NCBI GenBank assembly: GCA_017938155.1 | Contig: JAGBCD010000019.1 | Span: forward strand, 1-34,389 | Source: Paludibacteraceae bacterium | GTDB taxonomy: Bacteria > Bacteroidota > Bacteroidia > Bacteroidales > Paludibacteraceae | Length of the DNA stretch: 34,389 nt | Reading direction: 5' to 3' | Part shown: in pieces, positions 10,154 to 34,389 of the stretch | How positions within the stretch are numbered: the first letter of the stretch is position 1 | How the letters are laid out: the number at the start of each line of letters is the position of its first letter | Position numbers and translations under genes: made by a program | Notes under the pieces: model-generated | What the model was told of the DNA's origin: nothing | Database searches by the model: none | Seen by the model: the letters and a program-made list of their open reading frames with translations, nothing else

Positions 10154-10196
10154 AAAATCGGGGCCCCCAGAGTAAACCAAGACTTCGTCTGTTTGC
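10154..10196. repeat. palindromic repeat, copy 2, within a 43 bp block identical to 18822-18864
   Basis: These 43 bp are identical and in the same orientation at 18822-18864. The left part contains the GGGGCCCC palindrome (10160-10167). The right part (10172-10196) is the hairpin GTAAAC-CA-AGAC-TTC-GTCT-GTTTGC. Confidence 0.85.
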
Positions 10197-10211
10197 GAAA
10201 AAAAACGGGTA

Positions 10212-10249
10212 CCCAAAAGTAAACCAAGATTTATCTGTTTGCTTTTGGG
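10212..10249. repeat. palindromic repeat, copy 3, with extended stem
   Basis: The arms CCCAAAAGTAAAC (10212-10224) and GTTTGCTTTTGGG (10237-10249) pair over 13 positions with one G-T. After a CA bulge, AGAT pairs with ATCT around a TT loop. Compared with copies 2 and 4, AGAC/GTCT has become AGAT/ATCT, a paired change that keeps the stem. Confidence 0.75.
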
Positions 10250-10470
10250 AGAAGAGAAGCGGAGGTACGAGTTGCTTTCAATGATAGAGCAGAGCGATAT
10301 CATTCGCGCAATCTCGTCACCGAACGCGCGGGCGGAGGGGTATAGCAAGGGTATACATATCTTTATCCTTATATATTATAATGGGTAGCCTTTTTATTTA
10401 CCATTTGCGGTTTTCTAATCTTGAAAAATGTAGAAAAAATCTCTCAAAAATCAGAATATTTTCTCAAAAA

Positions 10471-18709: not shown

Positions 18710-18774
18710 AGGAATTGCAACGGCCCTGCCGTCTAAACCCAGTGAACCAATCCCCTCTCTGTAGGCACTATGTG

Positions 18775-18819
18775 CCGTCCTCTAAACAGTAGGGTCTCTG
18801 CCCGTCCTCTAAACAGTAG
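18775..18819. repeat. 18 bp direct repeat pair downstream of nadB
   Basis: CCGTCCTCTAAACAGTAG occurs at 18775-18792 and again at 18802-18819, 27 bp apart. A weaker relative (GCCGTCTAAACCCAGTG) lies at about 18729-18745. They lead directly into the 43 bp repeat block. Confidence 0.7.
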
Positions 18820-18821
18820 CA

Positions 18822-18864
18822 AAAATCGGGGCCCCCAGAGTAAACCAAGACTTCGTCTGTTTGC
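18822..18864. repeat. palindromic repeat, copy 4, second copy of the 43 bp identical block
   Basis: Identical to 10154-10196 in sequence and orientation. It includes GGGGCCCC and the hairpin at 18840-18864. It lies between nadB and the OPT transporter, about 60 bp upstream of the transporter ATG. Confidence 0.85.
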
Positions 18865-18886
18865 TATGGGGATAACCATGGGTCTA

Positions 18887-20895: not shown

Positions 20896-20931
20896 AAAAA
20901 CTCGGATGTGCTTTGCGTGTCCGAGTTTTTT
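20896..20931 (+). terminator. rho-independent terminator after the OPT gene
   Basis: AAAAACTCGGA (20896-20906) pairs with TCCGAGTTTTT (20920-20930) around a 13 nt loop, ending in a T-run. It marks the left border of the defence-like island. Confidence 0.85.
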
Positions 20932-20978: not shown

Positions 20979-21036
20979 TCGAGTATCCCCTCTTCCTTTG
21001 TCCATTGTCCCGAATATCATTCGAGTATCCCCTCTT
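20979..21036. repeat. 16 bp direct repeat upstream of the methyltransferase
   Basis: TCGAGTATCCCCTCTT occurs at 20979-20994 and 21021-21036, 42 bp apart centre to centre. The second copy touches the promoter of the methyltransferase. It may be an operator pair or a junction left by insertion of the island. Confidence 0.6.
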
Positions 21037-21071
21037 TTTTTTGCATAGTTGCAAAAAAAGTTGTATCTTTG
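21036..21071 (+). promoter_or_regulatory. promoter with overlapping inverted repeat, head of the defence-like operon
   Basis: TTTG (21040-21043) and TATCTTTG (21064-21071), spaced 20 bp, match the Bacteroidetes consensus. An inverted repeat, TTTTTTTGCA (21036-21045) with TGCAAAAAAA (21050-21059) around TAGT, covers the -33 box and most of the spacer. It is a natural candidate for a regulator site. Transcription should start near 21078, only about 12 nt before the methyltransferase ATG. Confidence 0.65.
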
Positions 21072-21089
21072 GGGGCTAAATAGTATTTT

Positions 21090-22166
21090 ATGGCACGGAG
21101 TAATAAAACATATGAAGTAATTGACCTATTTTGTGGCATAGGAGGACTAAGTTATGGACTCAAATGCCAAGGAATGAAAATTCTTGCAGGTTTTGATTTA
21201 GACTATACTTGCCAATATGCCTATGAAACAAATACAGGTGGCAATTTTTACTATAGAGATGTGAAAACTATCTCGGGAGACGAGATAAATAAATTGTATT
21301 CTCAAAAGAAAAATGTTATTAGGGTTTTAGCAGGTTGTGCTCCATGTCAACCGTTCTCATCTTATGCCTTTAAAAACAAAAACAAAGATAAAGACAAATA
21401 CAACTTGTTATATGAGTTTGGCAGACTTGTAAAAGAGGTACATCCTGATATTGTAACAATGGAAAATGTTCCTGCGATAGCTTCATTTAAACTAAAATCT
21501 GTATTAGCTGATTTTGTAGAAGTATTGCAGAATGAGGGATACAATGTTAAATACAAAGTTGTTTATTGTCCTGATTATGGTATACCACAAACTAGGAAAC
21601 GATTGGTATTGTTAGCTTCACGTCTCGGAAATATTGATTTAATATCGCCAACTCATAAAAAAGAGAATTATGTAACGGTTAAAGATACTATTGGACATCT
21701 CCCCCCACTTGAGGCTGGACAAGGTTGCCCTACAGACGCATTACATCGATGCCGTGCATTGTCTCCTCTTAATCTTCAACGCTTGAAATCTACTCCTTAT
21801 GGCAGAAGTTGGAAAGATTGGCCTGCTGATTTAATGCTAGAGTGCCACAAAAAGGAAAGTGGAAAGAGTTTCGGAAGTGTTTATGGCCGAATGGTGTGGG
21901 AAGAACCATCGCCTACAATGACAACTCTTTGTACGGGAATTGGCAATGGACGATTTGGTCATCCAGTACAGAATCGTGCTATTTCAGCAAGAGAAGCAGC
22001 TCTATTCCAGACTTTTCCAATCACATATAAATTCTTTCCGAATGAACACGAGGTTTCTTTGACAAAAGCCTCTAGATATATTGGCAATGCGGTCCCTCCA
22101 AAGTTGGGAGAGGTTATTGCGCAAAGTATAAAAAATCATATAGAAGACCTTAAAAATAAAGCATAA
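21090..22166 (+). CDS. DNA (cytosine-5)-methyltransferase
   Basis: A 358-residue C5-cytosine methyltransferase with the motifs in normal order: motif I VIDLFCGIGGLSYGL (10-24), motif IV with the catalytic Cys86 in GCAPCQPFSSYAF, motif VI ENVPAI (125-130), motif VIII QTRKRLVLLASR, and motifs IX-X (ISAREAALFQTFP and RYIGNAVPPKLG). The target-recognition region between VIII and IX (about 190-285) decides specificity, which I cannot predict. It is the first gene of the island, behind a promoter with an operator-like repeat, and 3 bp before the GHKL gene. Together with the McrB-like and nuclease genes downstream it would serve as the protecting enzyme of a restriction system. Confidence 0.96.
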   Translation: MARSNKTYEVIDLFCGIGGLSYGLKCQGMKILAGFDLDYTCQYAYETNTGGNFYYRDVKTISGDEINKLYSQKKNVIRVLAGCAPCQPFSSYAFKNKNKDKDKYNLLYEFGRLVKEVHPDIVTMENVPAIASFKLKSVLADFVEVLQNEGYNVKYKVVYCPDYGIPQTRKRLVLLASRLGNIDLISPTHKKENYVTVKDTIGHLPPLEAGQGCPTDALHRCRALSPLNLQRLKSTPYGRSWKDWPADLMLECHKKESGKSFGSVYGRMVWEEPSPTMTTLCTGIGNGRFGHPVQNRAISAREAALFQTFPITYKFFPNEHEVSLTKASRYIGNAVPPKLGEVIAQSIKNHIEDLKNKA

Positions 22167-22169
22167 ACC

Positions 22170-24272
22170 ATGGAAGATAATGGAACATTAAAATGGCGTT
22201 TTGATGTCAGTACATTTAGGCTAATTGGACGAGATCTTATTACGGATCGCGTTACCGCATTATTCGAATTGGTAAAAAACTGCTATGATGCAAATGCTAC
22301 AGAAGTGACAGTCAAGTTCGATAATGTGGGTTTGGACAAACAAAATTCCGCCATAACAATTTCAGACGACGGCTTTGGTATGTCTTTTGCAGATATACGA
22401 GATAAATGGATGGTAATAGGAACATCCAATAAACGCTCTAATCCTTATACACCACTTCCCTTTCATCGTAAATGTGTAGGAGAAAAAGGTATTGGACGGT
22501 TTGCTGTGGATAAATTGGGAGACAAGGTTAACATTATTACCAAACAGGAAGGAGAAAATGATTGGCTGAATGTAGAAATTGATTGGGAATCTTATTATAA
22601 TAACAGCAATAATCAGCAATTAAGCCTCTTCACGGATATAGAGAATCACTATGAGTTTTATCCAGCAGAAGATAAAACAGAACATGGGACAATGCTAAAT
22701 ATTACCAATATTCGAGAAGTCTGGGTGGAGGATGATATTCAGCGATTCATCGCAGAGGTGGCAAGGCTTATCTCTCCTTTTGAGAAGATGAGTCTTCCTT
22801 TCAATATTAGAGTGATTGCTCCAGAATACGGTATTGACACAATAGCTAACAAAGGTATAGAGGATATAAAGTTAGCAACAGTTAGTTTCTCCATAACTTA
22901 CAATGCAGAGCAAAATATTCAAGAAACAGTGTTTTTCAATGAGTCTTCTGGAAAAATTGAAATCCAACGAGCTTCAATAAAATCTTTTGGCGGTATCAAA
23001 ATGAAAGTTTATTTCTTTGATGATACTGCGAGAAGGCAATATCGAAAAGAATTCAAAAATAGCCAGATTGACGGTATAAAGATTTATAGAGATGGAGTTA
23101 TAACTACACCTTTTGCTGAAAGCGAATCCAATGAAGACAAAAAACGAGATATTTTGGGTATTGATAAGCGATTATGGCAGGATATTTTCAATCGTGTAAG
23201 TACTCGTGAGATAATTGGTATAGTCGAAATAACAAAAGCTGATAACCCCAGTATTATTGACGCTACCAATAGACAGGATTTTGTGGACAATAGTGAATAC
23301 CGCGAACTGAAAGAGTTTATCATTAACCAACTGGATGCAATACAACATTTCAAAGAATATACACGAAAAATTCGCAAGCAGCAAAATGCTGATACATTGA
23401 AATCAGCAGGCGAAGACTTGCAATCTTTTATCTCCTCTGTTGAAACTATTGCTCAGCAGAATCCAGGCTTGAAGGCTCAATTGGATCCTGTTCTTAAGCA
23501 AGCTAAGAAAACAGGAAAAGCGGTCAAAACAGCCATTAAAGATAAAAAAGAAGCTGAAGATGAATTTGCTCGCAAAGAAAGCATTTACATGAGTATTATG
23601 TCACTACAAGAGTATGCCATCCATATTACTCATGCAGTGCGAACTACGTTGAACAAGATAAGGGATAGAGTAGAATACTTCAATTTATTTTTCCCAGATC
23701 CTAACGACCAGGACATTTTCGAGCGTTATGCAAAAGAGATGTATGTTGAGTTTGAGAATGTAAATAAAGTTATTGATTATATGTTGAGTTACTCTCAAGC
23801 TAATATACTGCCAGAAGATATTCAGCTAAATGACACTATCCGAGAAATCTTTACGGAATATCAACCTATGTTCGCAGCTAATAACATAAAACCAGATATT
23901 ATACTTCCTGAAAATATAACATTAAAAAATACACATAGGCAATTCTTTAGGGATATTATTCAAAATATTTTGGACAATTCCATAAAGGCACTTAAAGATG
24001 CTCCGCAGAAAATTATAAGATGTACTGTCAGTATTAAAGATAAGTCTCTCACTATCAAAATATCAGATACAGGTGTAGGTATCCCTATTGACAAAAGAGC
24101 ATGGGTATTTGGAATATATAATACCACCACCCAAGAGCAGGGCGGAGCTGGAATAGGTTTGTATATTGTCAAAACACGTGTTGAATCGCTAAAAGGTACT
24201 ATTGCTGTGGTTGATAGCGAATTTGGCGAAACAGGAACAACTATAAAGATAGAATTACCATTTAAACAATAA
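22170..24272 (+). CDS. double-GHKL protein: MORC/Hsp90-like ATPase fused to a histidine-kinase-like module
   Basis: 700 residues with two ATP-binding GHKL modules. The first (about 10-200) has the N-box ELVKNCYDANAT (33-44), DDGFGM (66-71) and GEKGIGRFAVDKLG (104-117), as in MORC/MutL/Hsp90-like ATPases. A middle domain (about 200-400) and a helical, charged stretch (about 400-470) follow. A DHp-like helix pair then carries HAVRTTLNKI with candidate phospho-accepting His488, where the usual acidic neighbour is Ala. The last part is a kinase-type GHKL: QNILDNSIKAL (598), DTGVGIP (633), WVFGIYNTTT and GGAGIGLYIV (658-667). No membrane segment is seen. It is 4 bp before a receiver-domain gene, so a soluble two-component pair is likely. 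MORC-like ATPases are known in restriction-modification operons. Confidence 0.85.
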   Translation: MEDNGTLKWRFDVSTFRLIGRDLITDRVTALFELVKNCYDANATEVTVKFDNVGLDKQNSAITISDDGFGMSFADIRDKWMVIGTSNKRSNPYTPLPFHRKCVGEKGIGRFAVDKLGDKVNIITKQEGENDWLNVEIDWESYYNNSNNQQLSLFTDIENHYEFYPAEDKTEHGTMLNITNIREVWVEDDIQRFIAEVARLISPFEKMSLPFNIRVIAPEYGIDTIANKGIEDIKLATVSFSITYNAEQNIQETVFFNESSGKIEIQRASIKSFGGIKMKVYFFDDTARRQYRKEFKNSQIDGIKIYRDGVITTPFAESESNEDKKRDILGIDKRLWQDIFNRVSTREIIGIVEITKADNPSIIDATNRQDFVDNSEYRELKEFIINQLDAIQHFKEYTRKIRKQQNADTLKSAGEDLQSFISSVETIAQQNPGLKAQLDPVLKQAKKTGKAVKTAIKDKKEAEDEFARKESIYMSIMSLQEYAIHITHAVRTTLNKIRDRVEYFNLFFPDPNDQDIFERYAKEMYVEFENVNKVIDYMLSYSQANILPEDIQLNDTIREIFTEYQPMFAANNIKPDIILPENITLKNTHRQFFRDIIQNILDNSIKALKDAPQKIIRCTVSIKDKSLTIKISDTGVGIPIDKRAWVFGIYNTTTQEQGGAGIGLYIVKTRVESLKGTIAVVDSEFGETGTTIKIELPFKQ

Positions 24273-24276
24273 AAAT

Positions 24277-24885
24277 ATGAGTTTCAAATTAGTATTTATT
24301 GATGACAATATGCGCGAGGGAGTTAATCATCCTTTTGTGCGTGCGATAGGTAAATTACAAACAGATGCAGAGATTACTGTTTGTCAAGATCCTCAAATTG
24401 GCTTACAATATGTGTTAGATAATCTTAACAGTAAGATGATTGTCTTTCTTGATTATAAGTTTGATGGATATGGCTTACAAGGTATTAACGTGTTAAAACA
24501 AATTCGTCAACGAACATCTCTACTCTATATAGTGATGATGTCTGCCAATGCTATTACTCAATTCGCTGCTACAGATATTATTGAGATGATTAATGAAGAT
24601 TATATTTGGTTCTTTGATAGAAATAATGGAACAGTACCTCGTGCATGTGAGTTGATTACGGAAATAAAGCATCTATGGGACGTGCGTTTTGATTGCATAC
24701 TTGAGCAATGGTTGGTGCGTCATCCTGAAGATAATAATAAGGAAGCCTATAGTGAACTTGGAGGAAAAACATATACGTGGGAAGATATATTAGTTGAGCT
24801 AAGACAACAGACACCTATAGGAAAGGCTTTCGAAGGAAAATTAAACGAGTTCTACATTTATCAACTCAATCGATCAAAGAAATAG
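24277..24885 (+). CDS. response-regulator receiver protein without recognised output domain
   Basis: 202 residues. The N-terminal 120 form a receiver domain: acidic pair D9-D10 (VFIDDN), phospho-acceptor D59 in IVFLDYKFDG, and S89 in VMMSAN. The conserved lysine near the end of the fold is not obvious; the place reads WFFDRNNG (111-118), so phosphorylation or switching may be atypical. The remaining 80 residues (KTYTWEDILVELRQQTPIGK) show no DNA-binding motif that I recognise. Spacing to the double-GHKL gene is 4 bp and to the protease-like gene 2 bp, suggesting a signalling chain. Its likely partner is the GHKL kinase-like protein; its target is unknown. Confidence 0.8.
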   Translation: MSFKLVFIDDNMREGVNHPFVRAIGKLQTDAEITVCQDPQIGLQYVLDNLNSKMIVFLDYKFDGYGLQGINVLKQIRQRTSLLYIVMMSANAITQFAATDIIEMINEDYIWFFDRNNGTVPRACELITEIKHLWDVRFDCILEQWLVRHPEDNNKEAYSELGGKTYTWEDILVELRQQTPIGKAFEGKLNEFYIYQLNRSKK

Positions 24886-24887
24886 GT

Positions 24888-25481
24888 ATGGCTTTTATTC
24901 TTATTGCGTATAATAATGATACATCCGCAGAACTGCATGAGTTTATGGAGTCATGTGGAGATAATGTGATGCAATACTGTTACGATAAGCAGATTGAATA
25001 TACACAATTGACTCCACCTTACCTTACTGAGCACGAAATGATGTCTCAAATCAAGGAGCATCATATATGCTTTATTGCGGGGCATGGGGATGATGACGGA
25101 ATTTATAACGAAACGGACGAAGATGTAATATCAACACGCACAACAAATTATAATTTCCAAGGTAAAGCATTATATTGTGTGTCTTGTTGTAGTGCGGTAA
25201 ATCTATGCCCAAGTCTCATGCAGATAGGTCTAAAATTGTATGTCGGTTACAATGATACATTTGAGGTAAGAGGAGATTATTCGCCTTTCTTGCAGAGTGC
25301 TTTATCCGGCTTAAAATGTTTGCTAGACGGAGATGATGCCAAAACTGCAAAAGAAAAAATGAATCAAATATATGATGAGCAGATTGATATACTGAATCAA
25401 GAAAATCCATGGGCTGCTGTTTGTTTGCTGCATAACAAAGAATCACTTGTTTTTCAAGGAGATGAAAACTATTCTATTTAG
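24888..25481 (+). CDS. predicted caspase/CHAT-like (clan CD) cysteine protease
   Basis: 197 residues matching the core of clan CD proteases. A strand ends in the catalytic-type histidine H66 (ICFIAGHGDDDGIY). A second strand ends in cysteines (ALYCVSCCSAVNLC, with C101 at the position of the CHAT LSAC motif and C100 as alternative). LYVGYNDTFEV then matches the strand after the active site, and LQSALSGLKCLLDG-AKTAKEKMNQIYDE the C-terminal helices of CHAT domains. It is short, with no extra repeat or targeting domain, so its substrate must be supplied by partners. The receiver protein 2 bp upstream is the obvious candidate regulator. Its amber stop is followed in the same frame by a winged-helix segment. 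Confidence 0.68.
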   Translation: MAFILIAYNNDTSAELHEFMESCGDNVMQYCYDKQIEYTQLTPPYLTEHEMMSQIKEHHICFIAGHGDDDGIYNETDEDVISTRTTNYNFQGKALYCVSCCSAVNLCPSLMQIGLKLYVGYNDTFEVRGDYSPFLQSALSGLKCLLDGDDAKTAKEKMNQIYDEQIDILNQENPWAAVCLLHNKESLVFQGDENYSI

Positions 25482-25520
25482 CGAGCAGATAGTATTACTA
25501 CCCAAAAGGCAAATGATGGG

Positions 25521-25718
25521 TTGAATACTACTACCCAAAAGAGAATATTGGATTACTTAAAGAACTACCCCAAAGCTACTAGGCAGGAAGTTGCAATAGC
25601 GTTAGGTGATATTACGGAAGATGGAGTAAAGTTCAATATCGGCTTGTTGCAACAATATGGAGTTTTGCAACGCAAAGGTGGAAGAAAAGAAGGAGAATGG
25701 ATAGTTTTTGTTGATTAG
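25521..25718 (+). CDS. winged-helix DNA-binding small protein, or displaced C-terminal domain
   Basis: 65 residues from a TTG codon. The helices QKRILDYLKNYPKATRQEVA and ALGDITEDGVKFNIGLLQQYG, followed by the wing VLQRKGGRKEGEWIVFV, are the winged helix often found at the C-terminus of AlbA_2-type ATP-binding and Fic proteins. No ATG is available. The frame is open back to 25482, directly behind the amber stop of the protease-like gene and in the same reading frame. It could be a free protein started at TTG, a domain reached by stop read-through, or the remnant of a lost larger gene. The motif TACTACCCAAAAG is repeated 33 bp apart at 25496 and 25529. Confidence 0.5.
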   Translation: MNTTTQKRILDYLKNYPKATRQEVAIALGDITEDGVKFNIGLLQQYGVLQRKGGRKEGEWIVFVD

Positions 25719-25814
25719 AACTTATTCCTTATTATTCCCTTCGCAACAAATATTACGCGAACAATGAGTGCTTTATAAGCGAAAGATAATAGAGAAAATA
25801 TAAATTATATAATA

Positions 25815-26921
25815 ATGATGCATGACGAAATGTTTGCTGCATGTAATCTTGAAGGCAAGGTTATTGAAGGCTGGTATGTAAAAACAAAACTACCTAAACC
25901 TGATACTTCTAAAGGAGAATCAGGTGGAAATTTCTCCATCTGCTATATTGTAGAAAAGGAAAACAAGGACTTTTTCATGAAAGTGCTAAATTACCAAAAC
26001 ATTATATTTGGAACTCCTCCTTCAGGAATGAGTTTTTCTGAATATATGGAAATAGCCCTTAAAGAATTTAATTATGAAAAAAGTCTTTCTAAATATTGCA
26101 AAGAAAAACGAATTTCAAAGGTGGTCATTTACGAAAGTTCTGGAGAAATTAATATTAATGAATATCAGTTTCCGGTTGTTTCATATATTATTTATGAAAA
26201 AGCCAATGGAAATATCCGAAAGTTCATAGAATATTCACAAAAAATGGAGTTTTCCGCACGAATTAACACATTGTCTGAAAAACTTCGATCATTGAGAGAT
26301 GTCGCTACTGGATTAAGTAGTTTACACCGCAATAATATAACTCATCAAGATTTGAAACCTTCCAACATTATGGAGTTTGGGAATGAATCAAAAATAGGAG
26401 ACTTAGGAAGGTCGTTATGTTTCGATAATGCTATAGAATGTCCATACATCGTGCGCTCATTCCATGGAGATTGGAACTATGCCCCGCCAGAAGCTATTTT
26501 TGGCTATTTACTTCCAGATGTTCAAGAAAGGCTCTATCAGATGGATAACTACACATTCGGAGGGTTAATATCGTATTATTTAACAGGAATGTCATTTAAT
26601 GCACTAATAAATTTGAATCTTCCCTACGACATGTTACACATGAGACAAATGGGACTAACATATGAAAATATAAAAGTAGATTTAATAAATGCTTTTGCCA
26701 AAAGTTTACAAATGTTACGTAATGAGATTCCATTAGAGAGCATACGCGAGTCTATAGTTACTGTTGTTGAATACTTATGCAATCCCGATCCTGCAAAAAG
26801 GGGACATCCTCAAAATTTAACCCCAAAAAATAAAACGCCAAATTACGATTTGCAAAGAACAATCACAGAATTAGATGTTGTTCATCACAAAGCTAGATTA
26901 GAATTACTAAAGCTTAATTAA
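25815..26921 (+). CDS. Hanks-type Ser/Thr protein kinase
   Basis: 368 residues, a cytosolic eukaryote-like kinase without transmembrane or sensor domain. A glycine loop at GESGGNFSICYIV (34-46) is followed by the ATP lysine K56 (FFMKVLNY). The catalytic loop is HQDLKPSN (177-184, Asp179). The magnesium motif is DLG (196-198) instead of DFG, and YAPPEA replaces APE. All catalytic residues are present, so it should be active. It begins after a 96 bp gap behind the winged-helix ORF and ends 3 bp before a TPR-protein gene, its likely partner. The DNA is clearly more AT-rich than that of the McrB-like gene. Phage-responsive Stk kinases are known, but I see no specific match. Confidence 0.88.
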   Translation: MMHDEMFAACNLEGKVIEGWYVKTKLPKPDTSKGESGGNFSICYIVEKENKDFFMKVLNYQNIIFGTPPSGMSFSEYMEIALKEFNYEKSLSKYCKEKRISKVVIYESSGEININEYQFPVVSYIIYEKANGNIRKFIEYSQKMEFSARINTLSEKLRSLRDVATGLSSLHRNNITHQDLKPSNIMEFGNESKIGDLGRSLCFDNAIECPYIVRSFHGDWNYAPPEAIFGYLLPDVQERLYQMDNYTFGGLISYYLTGMSFNALINLNLPYDMLHMRQMGLTYENIKVDLINAFAKSLQMLRNEIPLESIRESIVTVVEYLCNPDPAKRGHPQNLTPKNKTPNYDLQRTITELDVVHHKARLELLKLN

Positions 26922-26924
26922 TTT

Positions 26925-28454
26925 ATGGCAGCTTTTAATGAAATAGACAAACGAAATGTTTTGCCAAATTGGCGAAGCTATATTAAAACAGCGATTAGTG
27001 GTGAATTCCAGTCTTCAAAAAAGCAGAATTTTAGTATTCCTTTATTTCCGTTGGACGAATATATTTTTGCATGGAAAGAAAACAAAAATATCCCATATGC
27101 TTCAGACTTAGTTTCTGCGGCAATGACGAACGGACAAACAGAAAATTTGGAAGTACTTGAAGCTGCAAAATATATAATAGCTCATTCGGAAGATTGTTCC
27201 AACACACAGGTAATCTGTGCTCAAAGTATTATATCTGACAATAAATCTCAGAACATCAGAAATGATATTGGATTAGCAGATAAATTGTCTTGTATAAAAG
27301 ATAAAGAGACGCATTATAGGGAAAGTATTAGAATTTTAAAACAACAGAATTTATTGTTTCCTTATAATGCAATTAATTACTGTGAATTAGCAAGGTATTA
27401 TGCTAATTTGGGACAATGGGAGAAAGCAAAAAAGATGATGCATACAGCCATTCTTTTAGCCCCTGAATCTCGATATATATCCAGAAGTGCAGCAAGACTC
27501 TTTTCGCATATAGAAGAATATGATATAGCACATAAAGTCTTAACTAAAAACCCAGGATTGTTAAAGGATCCATGGATTATTGCATCTGAAATTGCAGTTA
27601 AGACTGCTATTGGGCGTAGTTCAAAATATATTAAAAGAGGGGCAGAACTGATTGCATCAGGCAATTACAATCCATTCAGTTGCTCAGAATTAGCCAGTGC
27701 TCTTGCTACATTAGAAATGAATCATGGGAATCGGAAAAAATGTCGCAACTATATGAATATTGCACTTCAACGACCAAACGACAATAGTTTGGCTCAAGCT
27801 GAATGGATTATTCACAAAGATCAAAATGTTGGATTTATTTTTGGAGATTATTCGTATTTGCAAAATAAAGCAGAAGCCGATTGTAGATATGCATATTTTA
27901 GAGAAGACTATTCAACAGCTTTGTCCGTAGGTGTTGATTGGATTGCAGACTATCCATTTGATTTAGATCCTATATATTTTACTGCGGAAATGGCATATAC
28001 ACATTTAAAAAAATATGATACTGCTATTGATATTATTCATTTAGGATTAAGATCTAATCCAGAAGATTTAGGACTATTAAATAATTTAGCCTACTGCTAT
28101 GCTTTATCTGGGCAAGTTTTAAGGGCGGAAAGCATTTTGGATAAAATTAATTTAAACGCTATAAATGTACCCAATAATACAAAAATTTGTTTAACAGCAA
28201 CAAGAGGTTTAGTCGAATATCGTAAAGGAAATACTGAATCAGGTCGAATGTTATATATGAAAGCCATGACAGATGCCCAAGGCTTAGGATGTGAGAAGGG
28301 GTTAATAGAGAAAGCATTATTAAATTTTATTAGAGAGGAGATAATGTTTAATACTAATTATGATACAGGTTTGTTATATCTAATGGATAATGTTACATCT
28401 AACGATAAAGAAATAAATCAACTAAAAAAGGATATACTTGCGATTATAAAATAA
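26925..28454 (+). CDS. TPR-repeat protein paired with the kinase
   Basis: 509 residues, almost wholly alpha-helical. TPR-like helix pairs are clear at about 147-215 (INYCELARYYANLGQWEKAK, then APESRYISRSAARLF) and about 350-405 (AEMAYTHLKKYDTAIDII, NLAYCYALSGQVLRAESIL). The first 110 residues form an unrecognised domain starting MAAFNEIDKRNVLPNWRSYI. No enzymatic motif, signal peptide or membrane segment is seen. It starts 3 bp after the kinase and shares its AT-rich base use, so the two look like one module in which the TPR protein is a scaffold, sensor or kinase substrate. This role is inference. Confidence 0.75.
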   Translation: MAAFNEIDKRNVLPNWRSYIKTAISGEFQSSKKQNFSIPLFPLDEYIFAWKENKNIPYASDLVSAAMTNGQTENLEVLEAAKYIIAHSEDCSNTQVICAQSIISDNKSQNIRNDIGLADKLSCIKDKETHYRESIRILKQQNLLFPYNAINYCELARYYANLGQWEKAKKMMHTAILLAPESRYISRSAARLFSHIEEYDIAHKVLTKNPGLLKDPWIIASEIAVKTAIGRSSKYIKRGAELIASGNYNPFSCSELASALATLEMNHGNRKKCRNYMNIALQRPNDNSLAQAEWIIHKDQNVGFIFGDYSYLQNKAEADCRYAYFREDYSTALSVGVDWIADYPFDLDPIYFTAEMAYTHLKKYDTAIDIIHLGLRSNPEDLGLLNNLAYCYALSGQVLRAESILDKINLNAINVPNNTKICLTATRGLVEYRKGNTESGRMLYMKAMTDAQGLGCEKGLIEKALLNFIREEIMFNTNYDTGLLYLMDNVTSNDKEINQLKKDILAIIK

Positions 28455-28496
28455 ATGATTCATACCTGTCACAGATAATATATTAATCATGTCTAT

Positions 28497-30476
28497 ATGA
28501 AAAACAATTACAAACTTCGTATCGGAGACTATTCAGATAATGGTCAGATCACTATTATTGATGAAGATAGATTGTGCTATGTAGTACAATCTGTGAACAG
28601 AGGTGCTAGCGGATTACGCACAATATCGAAAGCCCTGTTAAAAGAATTTGTGGACTATTTATATCACCATCCAGAAAACCAATCAAGAGTTGTTAGGGAA
28701 GCATTATGTGGGCAAAGTGATATTGACAAATTTGAATACGGATATGAATCTACTTTATTATTGATGGCGAAGATGGTATTGAGACTGGAGCATGTTAATC
28801 ATAACCAAACGGTGTACGATTCATCTTCTCTCCAACAAATCTTCTACGGAGCACCTGGTACTGGAAAGAGTCATAAGGTAAACAAGGAGATTCAAAATAC
28901 TCCCAATGCACTCGTTTTCCGCACGACTTTCCACCCTGATAGTGACTACTCTACATTTGTCGGTGCATACAAACCTACCATGAAGAGTGTGGATAGATTA
29001 TATTCGGCAGATGAGTTGATAGACAAGCTCTCTGAAATCAAAACATTAGGACATACCTATCCTTGCCATAAGTTTGCTGCAAAATATTGGTATTCATTGA
29101 AAGGACTTTCTGCAGCTGATATTAAGCGTATCATTCTCGCTTGCGATTTCCCTGAATCAATGACTGTAGAAGTGGGTAAAGGCATCGCCATTGGCGAAGA
29201 AATGGCAAAGCATGTACAAAACGACAAAATCGTTTACTCCTTCGTCCCTCAAGCTTTTCTCAAAGCTTATGTAGCAGCATGGCAGAATCCAGAGCAGCCT
29301 GTATTCCTTGTGATTGAGGAAATCAACCGTGGTAACTGTGCACAAATCTTCGGCGATATATTCCAACTCCTCGACCGCAAAGATGGCGTATCGGAATACC
29401 CAATCAAGGCAGATCAAGACATCCGTGACTATCTCGCAAAAGAGTTTGCAGGGTATGACTTGGATGCAAATATCCTATCGGGTGAGGAACTTGTACTCCC
29501 AGCCAACCTCCACATTTGGGCGACGATGAACACTTCAGACCAATCACTCTTCCCAATTGACAGCGCCTTCAAACGCCGTTGGGACTGGAAATATATGCCA
29601 ATCCATGATGCAGGCGAGAATTGGACAATCGCCCTGTCAGATGTAGAATACGATTGGTGGGACTTTGTGGAGAAGATCAACAATGTGATTGGTAACATGA
29701 CAAGCTCCGAAGATAAAAAACTTGGCTACTTCTTCTGCAAAGCTTGCAACGGCAAGATTGATGCAGAGAAATTTGTCAACAAAGTGATCTTCTACCTTTG
29801 GAATGATGTATTCAAAGACTACGAACTCTCTGACAAAGCATTCCAAGACGGAGAAGGAAAACTAACTTTTAACAAGTTCTACACTCCATTAGGCGATGCC
29901 AATGAAGCAACCATCAAGACATTGATGGAGAATATGGGAGTAGAGCTAAAAGAGATTGACCATGAACCCGAAAGTGAAGAAGATGAAAACGAGCTAGAAG
30001 ATAGTACTAGTCCTGCCGTTGCTCTACGAAAACAAAAGTGTAAAGAGTTTTGGACAGATTTCCTCCAATATGCCCAGAATAACTCTACCTATATGAGTAT
30101 CTTTAGTGGACGCAAAACTCCAACAACAGATCATTGGTATACATACAATGTGTTTGGTCGTCCTCTAACTTATTTGTGTGTAGATCAATTCCGCCGCCGC
30201 AATGAGTTAGTTGTGTCTATAAGTATGGATAAACCATCCTTTGCAAAACTAGCCGAACTTTACAAAAATGAGATAGAGCAAAAATTGCAGGGAATGGACC
30301 TCAAATGGGTACAAGACTTGCAAAAAAGTACTACAAAAAGCAATATCAGAGAAGTTTTACATGTAACTAACTTTGAAGACCCGATAGAAAGACAACAGCT
30401 ATTTATCCACATTGTTGATAGACTGATTCGTATGTATGGTGTATTCAATGAGTATTTTGGAAAAATCTCTGAATGA
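28497..30476 (+). CDS. McrB-like AAA+ ATPase/GTPase with C-terminal DUF4268-like domain
   Basis: 659 residues. An N-terminal domain of about 100 residues (unrecognised) precedes a McrB-type AAA+ motor: Walker A GAPGTGKS (118-125), Walker B VFLVIEEINRG (269-279), and sensor/GTP-type motif MNTSDQSLFPID (344-355) followed by the FKRRW arginines. A helical insert sits between the Walker motifs. The tail from about 510 (FWTDFLQYAQNN, LVVSISMD, HIVDRLIRMYGVFNEYF) resembles DUF4268 of restriction-associated proteins; this is a tentative match. McrB proteins translocate or remodel DNA and activate a nuclease partner. The stop overlaps the ATG of the nuclease gene by 4 nt, the classic mcrB-mcrC layout. 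Confidence 0.88.
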   Translation: MKNNYKLRIGDYSDNGQITIIDEDRLCYVVQSVNRGASGLRTISKALLKEFVDYLYHHPENQSRVVREALCGQSDIDKFEYGYESTLLLMAKMVLRLEHVNHNQTVYDSSSLQQIFYGAPGTGKSHKVNKEIQNTPNALVFRTTFHPDSDYSTFVGAYKPTMKSVDRLYSADELIDKLSEIKTLGHTYPCHKFAAKYWYSLKGLSAADIKRIILACDFPESMTVEVGKGIAIGEEMAKHVQNDKIVYSFVPQAFLKAYVAAWQNPEQPVFLVIEEINRGNCAQIFGDIFQLLDRKDGVSEYPIKADQDIRDYLAKEFAGYDLDANILSGEELVLPANLHIWATMNTSDQSLFPIDSAFKRRWDWKYMPIHDAGENWTIALSDVEYDWWDFVEKINNVIGNMTSSEDKKLGYFFCKACNGKIDAEKFVNKVIFYLWNDVFKDYELSDKAFQDGEGKLTFNKFYTPLGDANEATIKTLMENMGVELKEIDHEPESEEDENELEDSTSPAVALRKQKCKEFWTDFLQYAQNNSTYMSIFSGRKTPTTDHWYTYNVFGRPLTYLCVDQFRRRNELVVSISMDKPSFAKLAELYKNEIEQKLQGMDLKWVQDLQKSTTKSNIREVLHVTNFEDPIERQQLFIHIVDRLIRMYGVFNEYFGKISE

Positions 30477-32725
30477 AACTCCTTCTTGAGGAATATAAAT
30501 ACCCAGTAGAGCTCGTTCGTGAGGTGCTACATGGCATTGGGTCGGATGCATTGCAAGATATTGAAGGCGATGTATCACTCAGTTATGTGGGCTATTTCTA
30601 CAATCCTCAGCTGCGGGATTGTGTCTTTATACTCCCAAAGGTTCTGATGGATGAGAGCGGAAAAGTATTTGGGAAATATGACCCAAAAGCTCTTATTGAT
30701 TTGGACAAAAAGGAGAATGCTCTCACACAAGAGGAACGCAAATTCATCTACGAGTTTGCTGTTTGGATTCATCGTGCTATATCCGTCTTCCAACAATCAC
30801 ACAAGCAAAGCGATATCATCTACCATCGCCAAATATCACAAGTGGGACATGGTATGCGCCGTCGCTCTAATACGCTATTGGATATTCTGCTATCACTCAT
30901 CCAATTTAACAAAGACCACCAAGATTTCATCACCTTTATCCTCAAGAATATTCATTCTGGTTACAACAAGATCAATTGGACTCGCACAATCAATCGCTCG
31001 CAAGCTATCATCCAAGATAATAGCCCTATCTACCTCAATCCTGTTAATAAGAAGCGACAAATTAATTTTGATGAGGAACTTCTGATTATCTATTACTCCA
31101 TCCTCAACTATATCAGCGAGGCGTATGGCTTCCAAGTGAAAATTAATGTAGGTTTTCCACTCATCAAAGGAGCACAGTTTGCAAGCTATATGGCGGGGAG
31201 AGGACGCATCCGTTTGCGCCAAATCAAATACAAATACTATTCAGACCTTGCCCTTGAGCTTTGGGATTTGTGCTACGCATTCTTTGACAACGCTGAGAAG
31301 ATACATATCACAGCTGACCTCAAAGAGTATCTGCTCGTCAAGAACTTCTATATTGTCTTCGAAGCCATCATTGACGAGTTAATTGGTAGTAGTGTGGATA
31401 AAGCAGCCTTGCCAAAAGAACTAACCGAACAAAAAGACGGCAAGCTCGTGGACCACCTCTATACCTATAAAGGGCTCATGCAGCCTGAGGGCGAAGAAAC
31501 GCAAACCTACTACATTGGCGATAGCAAGTACTATCGCATTGGCGGACACCTTGGTGAGCATTCTATCTACAAACAATACACTTACGCACGCAATATCATC
31601 CAGTATAATATTGACTTGTGGCTAAATGATAATGTAACCGAAAAGCCAGAGATCAAGGTGCGTGACGACCAAACAGAAGGCTACAACATTTTGCCTAACT
31701 TCTTTATCAGCGCAGCGATGGAGAAGGACGATTTCAGCTATTCACATCGTGAAATCAAACTCACCCCGATGAAGGACAACCCAACAGTGCAATACCAGTT
31801 TGAGGACCGCCTCTTCGACCGTGACACCTTGTTACTATCGCGCTATAATGTCAATTTCTTGTTTGTGATTGCGCTATATGCTCGCAACAAACAATCGGAA
31901 AAAGCCGTTTGGAAAGATGAGGTGCGCCGTGAGTTCCGAAAGAATATACAAAGCGTATTGGATCAGCACTATCAGTTCTATCCTATGCGTTCAAAAGGCG
32001 TAAATCCAAACGAATACGTGCAAACGCATTTCAAACAACTAATTGGCAAAGTCTTTACGCCATTTGAGGACAAGGAGATTCTAACCCTCGCCCTACAAAC
32101 ACCAAATGATATTGAAAATCCTGAAATGCGTGCACAAGTAGAAACCAAACATGCGCAACTACTCGCAATGTTGGAAAAGGATTTCACGATACAAAACAAC
32201 TACAAACTTGGTCAACAACCGCAGCTCCCCCCACGCGCAGCAATCCAATGCAGCAGCACCGATTTTGTACTGGTAGGATATTATAAAAACTTTGAGCATC
32301 TTGCATGGATTAAAACAAAGAAACTATATACTATCCGATTAGGTGATGCCAAAGGCTCAATGTCCATCAATCCTGAACTATTATCTACGAAATACCTTCT
32401 CTTGCATGGCGAAAAAGGGGTTAGCTTATTGGAATTAGAGACAGAAGGACCAAAGATAAAGAGTAAAGCAGACTTGATAACCAACCATCAGTATCCATCC
32501 AAAGATATGGAAGGCACCCAATACTATTTAGTATTCAAGATTAAAGGTAGCAAAATCCAAAACAATGTATTAGTAGAACATGGTTTTGAAATTGATACCC
32601 TTTGGGATAAATTAGGTATTGAGCACAAATCGGGTCTTGCATCCCGCACTTTAATTCCACATATAACCACCATCCCACAAGTCATGGACTGCCTTACTAC
32701 GCCAATAGAGGAGATAGGAGAATAA
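30473..32725 (+). CDS. PD-(D/E)XK nuclease partner of the McrB-like protein (LlaJI/DUF2357-like)
   Basis: 750 residues, translationally coupled to the McrB-like gene. The nuclease signature is YYIGDSKYYR with D350 and K352, followed by IYKQYTYARNI with Gln at about 366. This is the pattern seen in LlaJI-type and McrC/DUF2357-type endonucleases. Upstream, about 220 helical residues and a conserved-looking GRGRIRLRQIKYKY segment precede the active site. Downstream, residues about 570-750 form an extra beta-rich domain (DFVLVGYYKNFEHLAWIKTKKLY) of unknown kind, perhaps DNA- or modification-binding. With the McrB-like motor and the upstream m5C methyltransferase it could form a BsuMI/LlaJI-like restriction system. 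A modification-dependent type IV enzyme is the alternative. Confidence 0.8.
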   Translation: MKLLLEEYKYPVELVREVLHGIGSDALQDIEGDVSLSYVGYFYNPQLRDCVFILPKVLMDESGKVFGKYDPKALIDLDKKENALTQEERKFIYEFAVWIHRAISVFQQSHKQSDIIYHRQISQVGHGMRRRSNTLLDILLSLIQFNKDHQDFITFILKNIHSGYNKINWTRTINRSQAIIQDNSPIYLNPVNKKRQINFDEELLIIYYSILNYISEAYGFQVKINVGFPLIKGAQFASYMAGRGRIRLRQIKYKYYSDLALELWDLCYAFFDNAEKIHITADLKEYLLVKNFYIVFEAIIDELIGSSVDKAALPKELTEQKDGKLVDHLYTYKGLMQPEGEETQTYYIGDSKYYRIGGHLGEHSIYKQYTYARNIIQYNIDLWLNDNVTEKPEIKVRDDQTEGYNILPNFFISAAMEKDDFSYSHREIKLTPMKDNPTVQYQFEDRLFDRDTLLLSRYNVNFLFVIALYARNKQSEKAVWKDEVRREFRKNIQSVLDQHYQFYPMRSKGVNPNEYVQTHFKQLIGKVFTPFEDKEILTLALQTPNDIENPEMRAQVETKHAQLLAMLEKDFTIQNNYKLGQQPQLPPRAAIQCSSTDFVLVGYYKNFEHLAWIKTKKLYTIRLGDAKGSMSINPELLSTKYLLLHGEKGVSLLELETEGPKIKSKADLITNHQYPSKDMEGTQYYLVFKIKGSKIQNNVLVEHGFEIDTLWDKLGIEHKSGLASRTLIPHITTIPQVMDCLTTPIEEIGE

Positions 32726-32738
32726 AAACTTTAACTAT

Positions 32739-34115
32739 ATGATATTCACATCTTCAACACCAGAAATACTATCTGATAGTCCCTTTAAAAATGACTTGTT
32801 ACAACGAGAGCAATATGCTGATATATTAACTTCGTTAATTGATACATCAGAAAAGGGATTCACCATGTCTATCAATGCAACTTGGGGATATGGTAAGACG
32901 ACTTTTATTCGCATGTGGGAGAAAAAGCTTAAGAATCTTGGATATTCGACAGTATATATCAATGCGTGGGAGAAAGATTTTATAGATGATCCCTTTGCTG
33001 TTGTTATGGCAACCATTTGGGAGCAAACGCAGAAGCAAGATGCACATATTAAAAAGCCATCTGAAGTACTAAAAACATTGGGAGATATTGCAGGGAAAAT
33101 CATTGCTCATCGCTATATTGGAGAAGCGGCATTAGATGCCATGAAAAATGGTATTAGTAATGATGTACAAATTCCTTATGCATTAGATAAGTATATAAAA
33201 CAAGTTGAGAATATAAAGCAATTTAAAGAGCAGTTAAGTGTTTATGTCCAACAATTGAAATCGGAAGAAGAAAATGCAAAGGATAAATTGATAATATTTG
33301 TGGATGAGCTAGATAGATGCAGACCTGATTATGCAATAGAGATGTTAGAACGTATAAAACACTTGTTTTCGATTGATAATGTTATTTTTGTTTTGTCGGT
33401 AGATCAATCTGTTTTGCAAGAAACTATAAAAGGATTCTATGGTAGTTCAAATATTAGTGCAGAAAACTATCTTAGAAGATTTATTGATATTGAATATAGA
33501 TTGCCAGAACCTTCAACTGATGATTTTATAGAATTCCAAGTTCAATATCACAAACTAGATCAATATATCACAGAGCATACTCCACATCCTATGTTCTCTC
33601 GCGATAATACAGATTATTCCATTCTATTTCCTTTAATGGTAAAAATATTGTTTGAGGCTATTCCATGCAGTCTAAGAGACATAGAAAAATATTTTAATCA
33701 CATAGAATATGTAATAAGAACACTTAATTTGAATCGTGGTGACTTCTTTGTTTCTGTTTTCTTGACCTATGTATATATCTTCAAAAGGGATATCTATGAG
33801 CAAATTAGAGAATGCCAATATAACGATGTAGAATTATTACATACAATAGAGGATTTGCTTATTGCAGGTAAAATAGAATTGGATTCTAATCTTGGACAGT
33901 TAACGATAGAAATAATGGTAGAAATAATAAATAGATATCGAGTTACAATTGAATCGCAAAATGTAAAAGATGATGAACGATTAACGGATTTGGCAAAATT
34001 CAAATCAAAACATATTTTAAGTTTAGATTCTAAAAATGTATTTCGATATAACTATTTGTCAAAATCATTAGACACATATATCAACAAGATTGAAATGACT
34101 GAGGCAATTCGTTAA
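32739..34115 (+). CDS. KAP family P-loop NTPase
   Basis: 458 residues of the KAP P-loop family (type member PifA of plasmid F). Walker A is ATWGYGKTTF (47-56), followed by VYINAWEKDFIDDPF, the family's INAW motif. Walker B is IIFVDELDRCRPDYA (185-199), then HLFSIDNVIFVLSVDQSVL. The two transmembrane helices often inserted between Walker A and B are not seen; that interval here (about 80-170) is charged and helical. The gene starts 13 bp after the nuclease stop and is followed by a possible terminator, so it is the last gene of the run. Some KAP proteins act in phage exclusion or appear in defence islands. Its exact job here is unknown. Confidence 0.86.
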   Translation: MIFTSSTPEILSDSPFKNDLLQREQYADILTSLIDTSEKGFTMSINATWGYGKTTFIRMWEKKLKNLGYSTVYINAWEKDFIDDPFAVVMATIWEQTQKQDAHIKKPSEVLKTLGDIAGKIIAHRYIGEAALDAMKNGISNDVQIPYALDKYIKQVENIKQFKEQLSVYVQQLKSEEENAKDKLIIFVDELDRCRPDYAIEMLERIKHLFSIDNVIFVLSVDQSVLQETIKGFYGSSNISAENYLRRFIDIEYRLPEPSTDDFIEFQVQYHKLDQYITEHTPHPMFSRDNTDYSILFPLMVKILFEAIPCSLRDIEKYFNHIEYVIRTLNLNRGDFFVSVFLTYVYIFKRDIYEQIRECQYNDVELLHTIEDLLIAGKIELDSNLGQLTIEIMVEIINRYRVTIESQNVKDDERLTDLAKFKSKHILSLDSKNVFRYNYLSKSLDTYINKIEMTEAIR

Positions 34116-34122
34116 ATCTCCT

Positions 34123-34152
34123 TCTCCTCATCTATATATACAATTGAGGAGA
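34123..34152 (+). terminator. possible terminator after the KAP gene
   Basis: TCTCCTCA (34123-34130) pairs perfectly with TGAGGAGA (34145-34152) around a 14 nt AT-rich loop, 7 bp after the stop codon. There is no T-run, so termination strength is uncertain. Confidence 0.45.
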
Positions 34153-34229: not shown

Positions 34230-34237
34230 TACCTTTG
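34230..34237 (+). promoter_or_regulatory. -7 promoter element upstream of the RhuM gene
   Basis: TACCTTTG matches the Bacteroidetes -7 box and lies 25 bp before the RhuM ATG. No good TTTG is found 19-21 bp upstream, so the -33 box is weak or the promoter is regulated. Confidence 0.45.
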
Positions 34238-34262: not shown

Positions 34263-34389
34263 ATGGACAACAATATGAGTATTCAATTGGCCTCAAACGA
34301 TGAAATTTTGATTTACCAATCCCAAGATGGTATAATTAAAATCGATGTTTTGTTCGAAAACGAAACAGTTTGGCTGAACCAGAATCAAC
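34263..34389 (+). CDS. RhuM family protein, N-terminal part
   Basis: The first 42 residues are visible before the window ends. DEILIYQSQDGIIKIDV followed by FENETVWLNQNQ is the conserved start of the RhuM family, in which a helix-turn-helix-like region normally follows. RhuM was first described on a Salmonella pathogenicity island. Homologues are common in bacterial accessory regions, often near restriction or toxin-antitoxin genes, and their biochemical role is not established. It has its own -7 element and is separated from the KAP gene by about 150 bp, so it may be a separate unit. Confidence 0.85.
   Translation, partial: MDNNMSIQLASNDEILIYQSQDGIIKIDVLFENETVWLNQNQ

Follow-up and report, generated by a model that had tools for sequence, protein, structure and literature searches.

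In Detocs, a histidine kinase and a receiver drive an effector in phage defence; the kinase is fronted by tetratricopeptide repeats (TPR) and the effector cleaves ATP. In type IV Thoeris, TIR acts by a nucleotide signal on a caspase-like protease effector, and in type II restriction-modification (R-M) systems of the BbrUII/HgiDII kind (NF050001; REase_II in PADLOC) a 5-methylcytosine (m5C) methylase adjoins a GHKL-fronted enzyme. Here we analyse a stretch of 34,389 nucleotides from a Paludibacteraceae bacterium (GenBank assembly GCA_017938155.1, contig JAGBCD010000019.1, positions 1 to 34,389 of the forward strand), hereafter the window, which makes up all of contig C12 in a draft genome of 1.96 Mb. 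Our subject is a four-gene cassette at 21090-25481, which encodes a methyltransferase, a histidine kinase (HK), a response regulator (RR) and a small protein of 197 amino acids (aa):

21090..22166, + strand: DNA (cytosine-5) methyltransferase, cassette gene 1 (PF00145, 7e-58; TIGR00675 above cut-off; invariant residues)
22170..24272, + strand: double-GHKL HK, made of a MORC/MutL-like ATPase half, an H-box and a kinase ATPase (PF13589, 1e-22; PF02518, 7e-25)
24277..24885, + strand: RR receiver whose C-terminal extension is short and conserved (PF00072, weak; D10, D59)
24888..25481, + strand: small caspase-like protein, predicted clan CD, putative effector, 197 aa (invariant H66-G67, C100)

The sister pair HEF_HK/Response_reg_2 (PF19191/PF19192) resembles our HK and RR in its soluble kinase of HATPase_c_3, H-box and HATPase_c, in its receiver-type gene and in its C5 methylases. 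According to PMC8011034 (2021), this pair lies beside C5 methylases, sometimes with Vsr near, a paraMORC origin is proposed for it, and it is speculated to control R-M systems; the RR-like query used there has 600 aa, whereas the window RR has 202 aa, and the main text gives 0 matches for protease, peptidase, caspase or phage. Neither window protein carries the two Pfam domains: PF19191 is absent from the window HK at E<=0.1 (the one cassette HK scanned), and PF19192 is missing from the 7 families to which any of 42 scanned RR relatives gave a match at E<=0.01. With both domain tests failed, membership of HEF_HK was rejected. In a plasmid relative, L124, the HK does match PF19191, at 1.3e-4, itself just under the cut-off. 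Excerpts of PMC2292703 describe paraMORC families of defence or R-M loci, with a GHKL ATPase module that is joined to an output domain, and excerpts of PMC12137116 describe such a fusion in the GHKL-Shedu protein VcSduA; the outputs described there include a nuclease or TIR, whereas the window has a kinase with a separate receiver and a caspase-like partner. A GHKL kinase that is activated by single-stranded DNA and controls immune operons gives a precedent for DNA-sensing kinases (PMC13373217), and receivers without kinases are mentioned for conflict systems (PMC8195603).

From Detocs the cassette differs by its double-GHKL sensor (by Pfam, no TPR in the window HK), its methylase and its caspase-like effector, and no ATP-cleaving effector domain of the Detocs type is found in it by Pfam or PADLOC. 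With type IV Thoeris it would share a caspase-like effector, here a putative one, but it would work by a phosphorelay and has a methylase in addition. Unlike in BbrUII/HgiDII, the back half of the window HK is a histidine-kinase core, and the four proteins show no nuclease domain beyond a partial REase match in the HK front half (Pfam, PADLOC, NCBIfam). Neither the four-gene set nor a caspase-like partner of an HK-RR pair was found described among the matches listed in the open-licence PMC literature, in agreement with the original prediction, made from the letters of this DNA, in which no named system with exactly this set could be given.

With belief and doubt about evenly balanced, we read 21090-25481 as an R-M-like defence cassette in which a phosphorelay that drives a suicide protease has taken over from the nuclease. 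The methyltransferase would mark the cell's own DNA, while the MORC/MutL-like front half of HK would sense unmarked DNA, or loss of the methylase, and then close on ATP. Closure of the front would switch on the histidine-kinase half (H488), which would phosphorylate Asp59 of RR, and the phosphorylated receiver would release or activate the small caspase-like Cys/His protein. This protein would cleave host or phage proteins, and infection would be stopped by cell killing or arrest. In this scheme we infer what the signal is, that a relay exists and which way it runs, the protease activity and the role in phage defence. A wider formulation, which we consider somewhat less likely than not, is methylation-gated death, i.e. 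the histidine kinase may have taken the place of a BbrUII-like endonuclease, foreign or unmethylated DNA may act through the phosphorelay on the caspase-like protease, and the cassette may be one branch of a modular class which keeps methylase and kinase and swaps the output (caspase-like, HNH, others).

Relatives were drawn by HK alone, disregarding neighbours. Two peptide patterns designed for close relatives of HK, run across the genomes of 84,980 species, gave 119 relatives; the best 80 were kept, and dropping L110, whose HK is cut, left 79 loci. Methyltransferase, HK, RR and caspase-like genes occur together in 77/79 of these loci (order and strands from locus maps), with the methylase gene upstream of HK in 77/79; the core order recurs far beyond close relatives, a test that had been suggested at the outset. 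The two exceptions are L054, which starts within HK, and L114, from an archaeal metagenome-assembled genome (MAG), which has a kinase, a 203-aa gene and then a methylase. A filter for tight adjacency was passed by 68 of 81 cassettes (window and L007 included), the failures inspected coming mostly from overlapping starts of open reading frames (ORFs), and the 68 aligned cassettes count one record twice (L007 = L091). Within the same order, 1 of 246 other genomes has a full-length HK among the matches listed (G104, 41%), accompanied by the same four genes, and G070 has the kinase back half, the receiver and a shortened caspase-like gene. Around 66 cassettes, a same-strand ORF of at least 100 aa within 150 bp lies downstream in 29 (not in 34; contig end in 3) and upstream in 19, and with adjoining ORFs in only 29/66 and 19/66 the cassette is not bound to fixed partners. 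The four genes are a conserved unit, widespread across Bacteroidota. The 22-kb loci L051 and L055 each hold a further protein with the kinase as its best match, possibly from stacked cassettes and possibly an ordinary kinase.

HK residues 11-425 align to positions 5-384 of 659 of the BbrUII/HgiDII model NF050001 (1.9e-23, 82.9 bits), residues 6-425 to phrog_6203, and residues 480-700 with solved histidine kinases. Because of the 11-425 and 480-700 alignments, we describe HK as a restriction-enzyme-like front joined to a kinase back; the BbrUII/HgiDII back half that it lacks would be the nuclease. Residues E33, N37, D66, H488, N603, D633, G659 and G661 are present in 68/68 aligned cassettes, position 491 is R or K in 68/68, and the N-terminal ATPase glycines are kept too. 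The match to PF13589 (HATPase_c_3) at 1e-22, together with E33, which we take to be the catalytic Glu of the N-terminal ATPase, places the front half with the paraMORC/GHKL ATPases. RR matches PF00072 at 6e-4 in the window, which is under the cut-off, and 37/42 aligned relatives match it at E<=0.01; D10 and D59 are found in 68/68, as is S or T at position 89. The residues of a two-component phosphorelay, i.e. the H-box His, the kinase N and G boxes and the receiver Asp, are all present.

In the methyltransferase, C86, E125, N126 and V127 occur in 68/68 aligned cassettes, and identity to the window protein splits the 68 into group A (at least 47%; 34) and group B (27-32%; 34), a label which changes once on the HK tree. 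HK and methylase are co-inherited at group level. By its sequence the enzyme is a predicted cognate m5C methyltransferase (PF00145), as in type II R-M. The outer genes of the operon had been taken for a restriction core; the McrB/LlaJI pair remains of that core, but the methyltransferase is part of the HK cassette and not only of the outer core.

The last gene of the cassette had been called a predicted clan CD protease, a label for which invariant His-Gly and Cys speak and to which no family match could be added. H66-G67 is present in 68/68 cassettes and C100 in each of the 67 long enough to include this position (L045 is cut), with 31-35 residues from H to C. A His-Gly followed by a Cys dyad is presumably the clan CD protease pattern, and it is mainly these residues, invariant and in the right order, that suggest the term 'caspase-like'. 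Among the four cassette proteins this one is the most divergent, with a mean pairwise identity of 0.28. The window copy is unmatched in Pfam (E 0.1), PADLOC (0.1), NCBIfam (0.01), PHROGs (0.001) and a plasmid search; 1/55 family members matches Peptidase_C25 (6e-4), and a PDB profile search returned caspase chains weakly, at E 0.2-0.9, outranked by unrelated proteins. The claim that phospho-signalling genes stand beside a protease-like effector was borne out.

The effector is the weak point of the proposed defence cassette, and several results count against it. In hhalign, comparison of the caspase-like family to Peptidase_C14 and CHAT was not significant, with scores under an unrelated control (the C14-CHAT positive control for this comparison was itself weak), and 10 diverse members searched in Pfam to E 5 gave 0 protease-family matches. 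The BbrUII/HgiDII match of HK, at 82.9 bits, is below the curated cut-off of 550, and only 36/68 cassettes, the window not among them, align a Lys at the canonical receiver position. Moreover, all loci stem from that single scan by two peptide patterns, aimed at close relatives of HK (best 80 of 119). In favour of the reading, partial rank correlation across 57 dereplicated cassettes is high between neighbours only, with 0.64 for methyltransferase-HK, 0.38 for HK-RR and 0.49 for RR-caspase-like against -0.14 to 0.18 for non-neighbours; simple linkage could also fit this neighbour-only pattern. Within group A, methyltransferase-HK (0.26) equals methyltransferase-RR (0.26), and within group B it is 0.24 vs 0.28 for HK-caspase-like; since the correlations fade within groups, most of the overall 0.64 comes from the division into A and B.

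The spread of the cassette is patchy and mobile. Parabacteroides goldsteinii and Hoylesella timonensis belong to separate families, yet their cassettes share 95.8% identity over 4416 bases, a near-identity which reflects transfer. As a prophage copy, the complete cassette is present on viral contig L155, some 2 kb ahead of a tail tape-measure gene; the kinase and tape-measure stretch of L155 are identical to those of a Flavobacterium locus, L108, and because they are the same element the two make a single observation.

Some distant relatives have a different third gene. By Pfam, an HNH protein stands beside distant HKs on a Deinococcus plasmid (L117) and a Bacteroides finegoldii plasmid (L123), and similar HNH-type proteins occur in five viral contigs (L156, L174, L177, L179, L180); the RR-like gene of these loci matches PF00072 weakly in L117 and L123, is similar to that of L123 in L174, L177 and L179, and was recognised visually and from its position in L156 and L180. 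A related partner of ~450 aa is common to nine viral contigs, some of them near-copies (L158, L160, L161, L163-L165, L168-L170), and a partner of 633-714 aa is common to L124-L127, where the kinase of L124 is HEF_HK-like. Methylase types vary by annotation (m5C, Eco57I-type, N-6). A methylase is annotated in 8/13 fetched plasmid stretches with distant kinases, with none annotated in L120 and L124-L127, and in 17/28 viral loci with distant kinases the mapped surroundings include an m5C-type gene. Vsr-like genes lie near 8/79 of the close kinases, including that of L114. The Stenotrophomonas plasmid record L116 (CP031730.1) has a methylase, a kinase, a receiver (profile 3e-8) and a 226-aa protein which is caspase-like by eye and unmatched by the cassette caspase profile; viral contig L166 has the order of L116 and a weak caspase-profile match (2e-4). 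In the PLSDB table, the receiver and the caspase-like gene of L116 have no annotated gene, and the record is AT-rich by eye, which makes the host label doubtful. Separately, L157-L165 and L168-L170 hold viral double-GHKL-like kinases, often with an m5C methylase, as a second large branch of the HK family.

In the window the cassette opens a larger operon at 21090-34115, which is real and consists, as originally described, of ten ORFs on the + strand. The other features of the operon are:

21064..21071, + strand: TATCTTTG, probable -7 box of the operon promoter (match to the Bacteroidetes consensus; motif frequent)
25521..25718, + strand: small ORF of 65 aa, winged-helix-like, perhaps a remnant (phmmer matches in 5 loci including the window)
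25815..26921, + strand: Ser/Thr kinase M71A of PADLOC candidate PDC-M71 (2.7e-114)
26925..28454, + strand: TPR protein M71B of PADLOC candidate PDC-M71 (1.1e-155)
28497..30476, + strand: McrB-like AAA ATPase with a DUF4268 C-terminus (PF07728, PF14088)
30473..32725, + strand: LlaJI-like restriction endonuclease (RE), partner of the McrB-like ATPase (PF09563, 9e-5, under cut-off; phrog_16589, restriction endonuclease)
32739..34115, + strand: KAP P-loop ATPase of PADLOC candidate PDC-S20 (PF07693, 2e-39; PDC-S20, 1e-115)

The identities first given to these genes (m5C methyltransferase, two GHKL domains, receiver, Ser/Thr kinase, TPR, McrB, LlaJI-like nuclease, KAP) agree with Pfam and PADLOC. 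With PADLOC-DB 2.0.0 at E 0.1, a check suggested at the outset, PDC-M71 (2.7e-114 and 1.1e-155) and PDC-S20 (1e-115) are matched, but there is no match for RR or the caspase-like protein, and HK gives only a partial REase_II match. The McrB-like ATPase matches AAA_5 at 1.8e-5, over the cut-off, and the match of its partner to RE_LlaJI is just under the cut-off; the pair, which recurs in relatives, is LlaJI/McrB-like, as originally suggested. The winged-helix label of the 65-aa ORF is the naming of the original prediction; two of its five phmmer matches lie inside ORFs of 471 and 515 aa. Intergenic gaps are, in order, 3, 4, 2, 39, 96, 3, 42, -4 (ATGA at 30473) and 13 bp, hence six of nine are short; the picture of mostly short gaps and ATGA overlaps stands for these six, with one ATGA, but not for the gaps of 39, 96 and 42 bp. 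Of the two terminator-like hairpins said to flank the operon, that at 20900-20926 has a trailing T-run and by eye is a good terminator of the preceding gene, while that at 34123-34152, downstream, is without a T-run; a terminator scan of the window gave 9 sites vs 7.7 expected, i.e. no excess, and missed both. The TATCTTTG box, which we take to be of the Bacteroidetes -7 type, lies 18 bp upstream of the first ATG of the operon, and motifs of this type are common in the window (64 matches vs 38.5 expected).

Outside the operon, ordinary functions are found for the nine genes that were tested ahead of 20872 (OPT transporter, SusC/D-like, M13 peptidase, others). In three same-genus relatives the region after the OPT gene (12.5, 12.5 and 6 kb) is occupied by other genes, with nothing of the operon among them, and because gene order varies among these three a clean empty site is not demonstrated. 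The promoter region (window 21035-21080) has copies of 32-45 bp, 87-89% identical, at four other sites of the genome, on C7, C15, C17 and C18, probably as a shared promoter-like repeat. From the first ~110 bp of the OPT ORF (window positions 18770-18875 and 10154-10253), stretches of 40-55 bp recur at several sites of the bacterium's own genome, and shorter ones genus-wide. A TACCTTTG box lies at 34230, 3' of the operon; the next gene runs from about 34264 (window 34264-34389), has this TACCTTTG box as its own and looks RhuM-family-like by eye. An ORF that looks RhuM-like by eye is also near the kinase-TPR pair in L216.

The operon is a stack of separable modules (21090-25481, 25815-28454, 28497-32725 and 32739-34115, with the 65-aa ORF between the first and second) and not a single system. 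The initial idea of one composite system did not hold, since the conserved unit is four genes and both kinase-TPR and McrB-RE occur elsewhere without the cassette in the stretches read; ten genes as one obligate system were rejected, and so was the opposite extreme, only two unrelated systems side by side, because the four-gene core is itself conserved. A softer version, in which the whole 13-kb operon is an integrated two-layer system with restriction first and kinase-receiver-protease suicide on its failure, is quite improbable in our judgement. It draws on the McrB-RE pair, which follows the cassette on the same strand in 18/59 loci (window included, at least 6 kb downstream) and precedes it in 0/67, and whose label changes at least 6 times on the HK tree (60 rows); these numbers make a coupling of pair and cassette plausible in Bacteroidales, where many of the loci at issue are ruminant-gut MAGs as titled. 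In LlaJI/BsuMI-type restriction, which the window resembles in its McrB-like ATPase and LlaJI-like nuclease, relatives L219, L221 and L222 bring m5C methylases, whereas the window has no own methylase between cassette and pair. A second methylase is likewise not labelled between them in L037, L041, L101 and L102, so that protection from both arms could come from a single methylase, and the pair may share that of the cassette. Integration is nevertheless opposed by the absence of the pair after most cassettes and by the occurrence of modules apart from the cassette. Among the fetched loci, L044 is the sole further one with kinase-TPR beside the cassette, and the window is alone in having KAP there (phmmer; flanks up to 10 kb, some cut), so that PDC-M71 and PDC-S20, however strong their matches, are neighbours outside the conserved cassette. 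Moreover, kinase-TPR is found in 4 other of 198 genomes of the order, with no cassette in their stretches (3.4-11.4 kb). McrB-RE was seen in five cassette-free stretches, with the m5C methylases of L219, L221 and L222, with one that is adenine-methylase-like by eye (L220), and alone (L223), and nuclease matches occur in 14/198 genomes of the order (own included), several to the C-terminal part only.

It is also unlikely, in our view, that HK-RR is an ordinary two-component system tuning neighbouring restriction genes, with the caspase-like protein as a minor regulator or an inactive scaffold. The speculation on R-M control in PMC8011034, the PF00072 matches of the aligned receivers and the small winged-helix-like ORF downstream would suit such a role, but RR has no recognised DNA-binding output domain (window Pfam scan; 42 aligned relatives), restriction genes of the McrB-RE type follow in just 18/59 loci, and H66 and C100 are invariant in the protein that otherwise diverges most. 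Quite unlikely, too, is that the cassette is a selfish guard which kills cells that lose the methylase (post-segregational killing) and is not dedicated to phage defence. Its anatomy resembles that of selfish R-M, and transfer and the prophage-borne copy are in keeping with this; however, nothing here separates such a guard from phage defence, and both could hold together.

If the cassette does couple a methylase through a phosphorelay to a suicide protease, R-M can turn from cutting DNA to signalling, and the self-marking of DNA would be linked to programmed cell death via classical two-component chemistry. The paraMORC kinases beside methylases, for which the 2021 paper only speculated on a regulatory role, would then gain a concrete effector candidate, and the list of bacterial caspase-like effectors would be extended.

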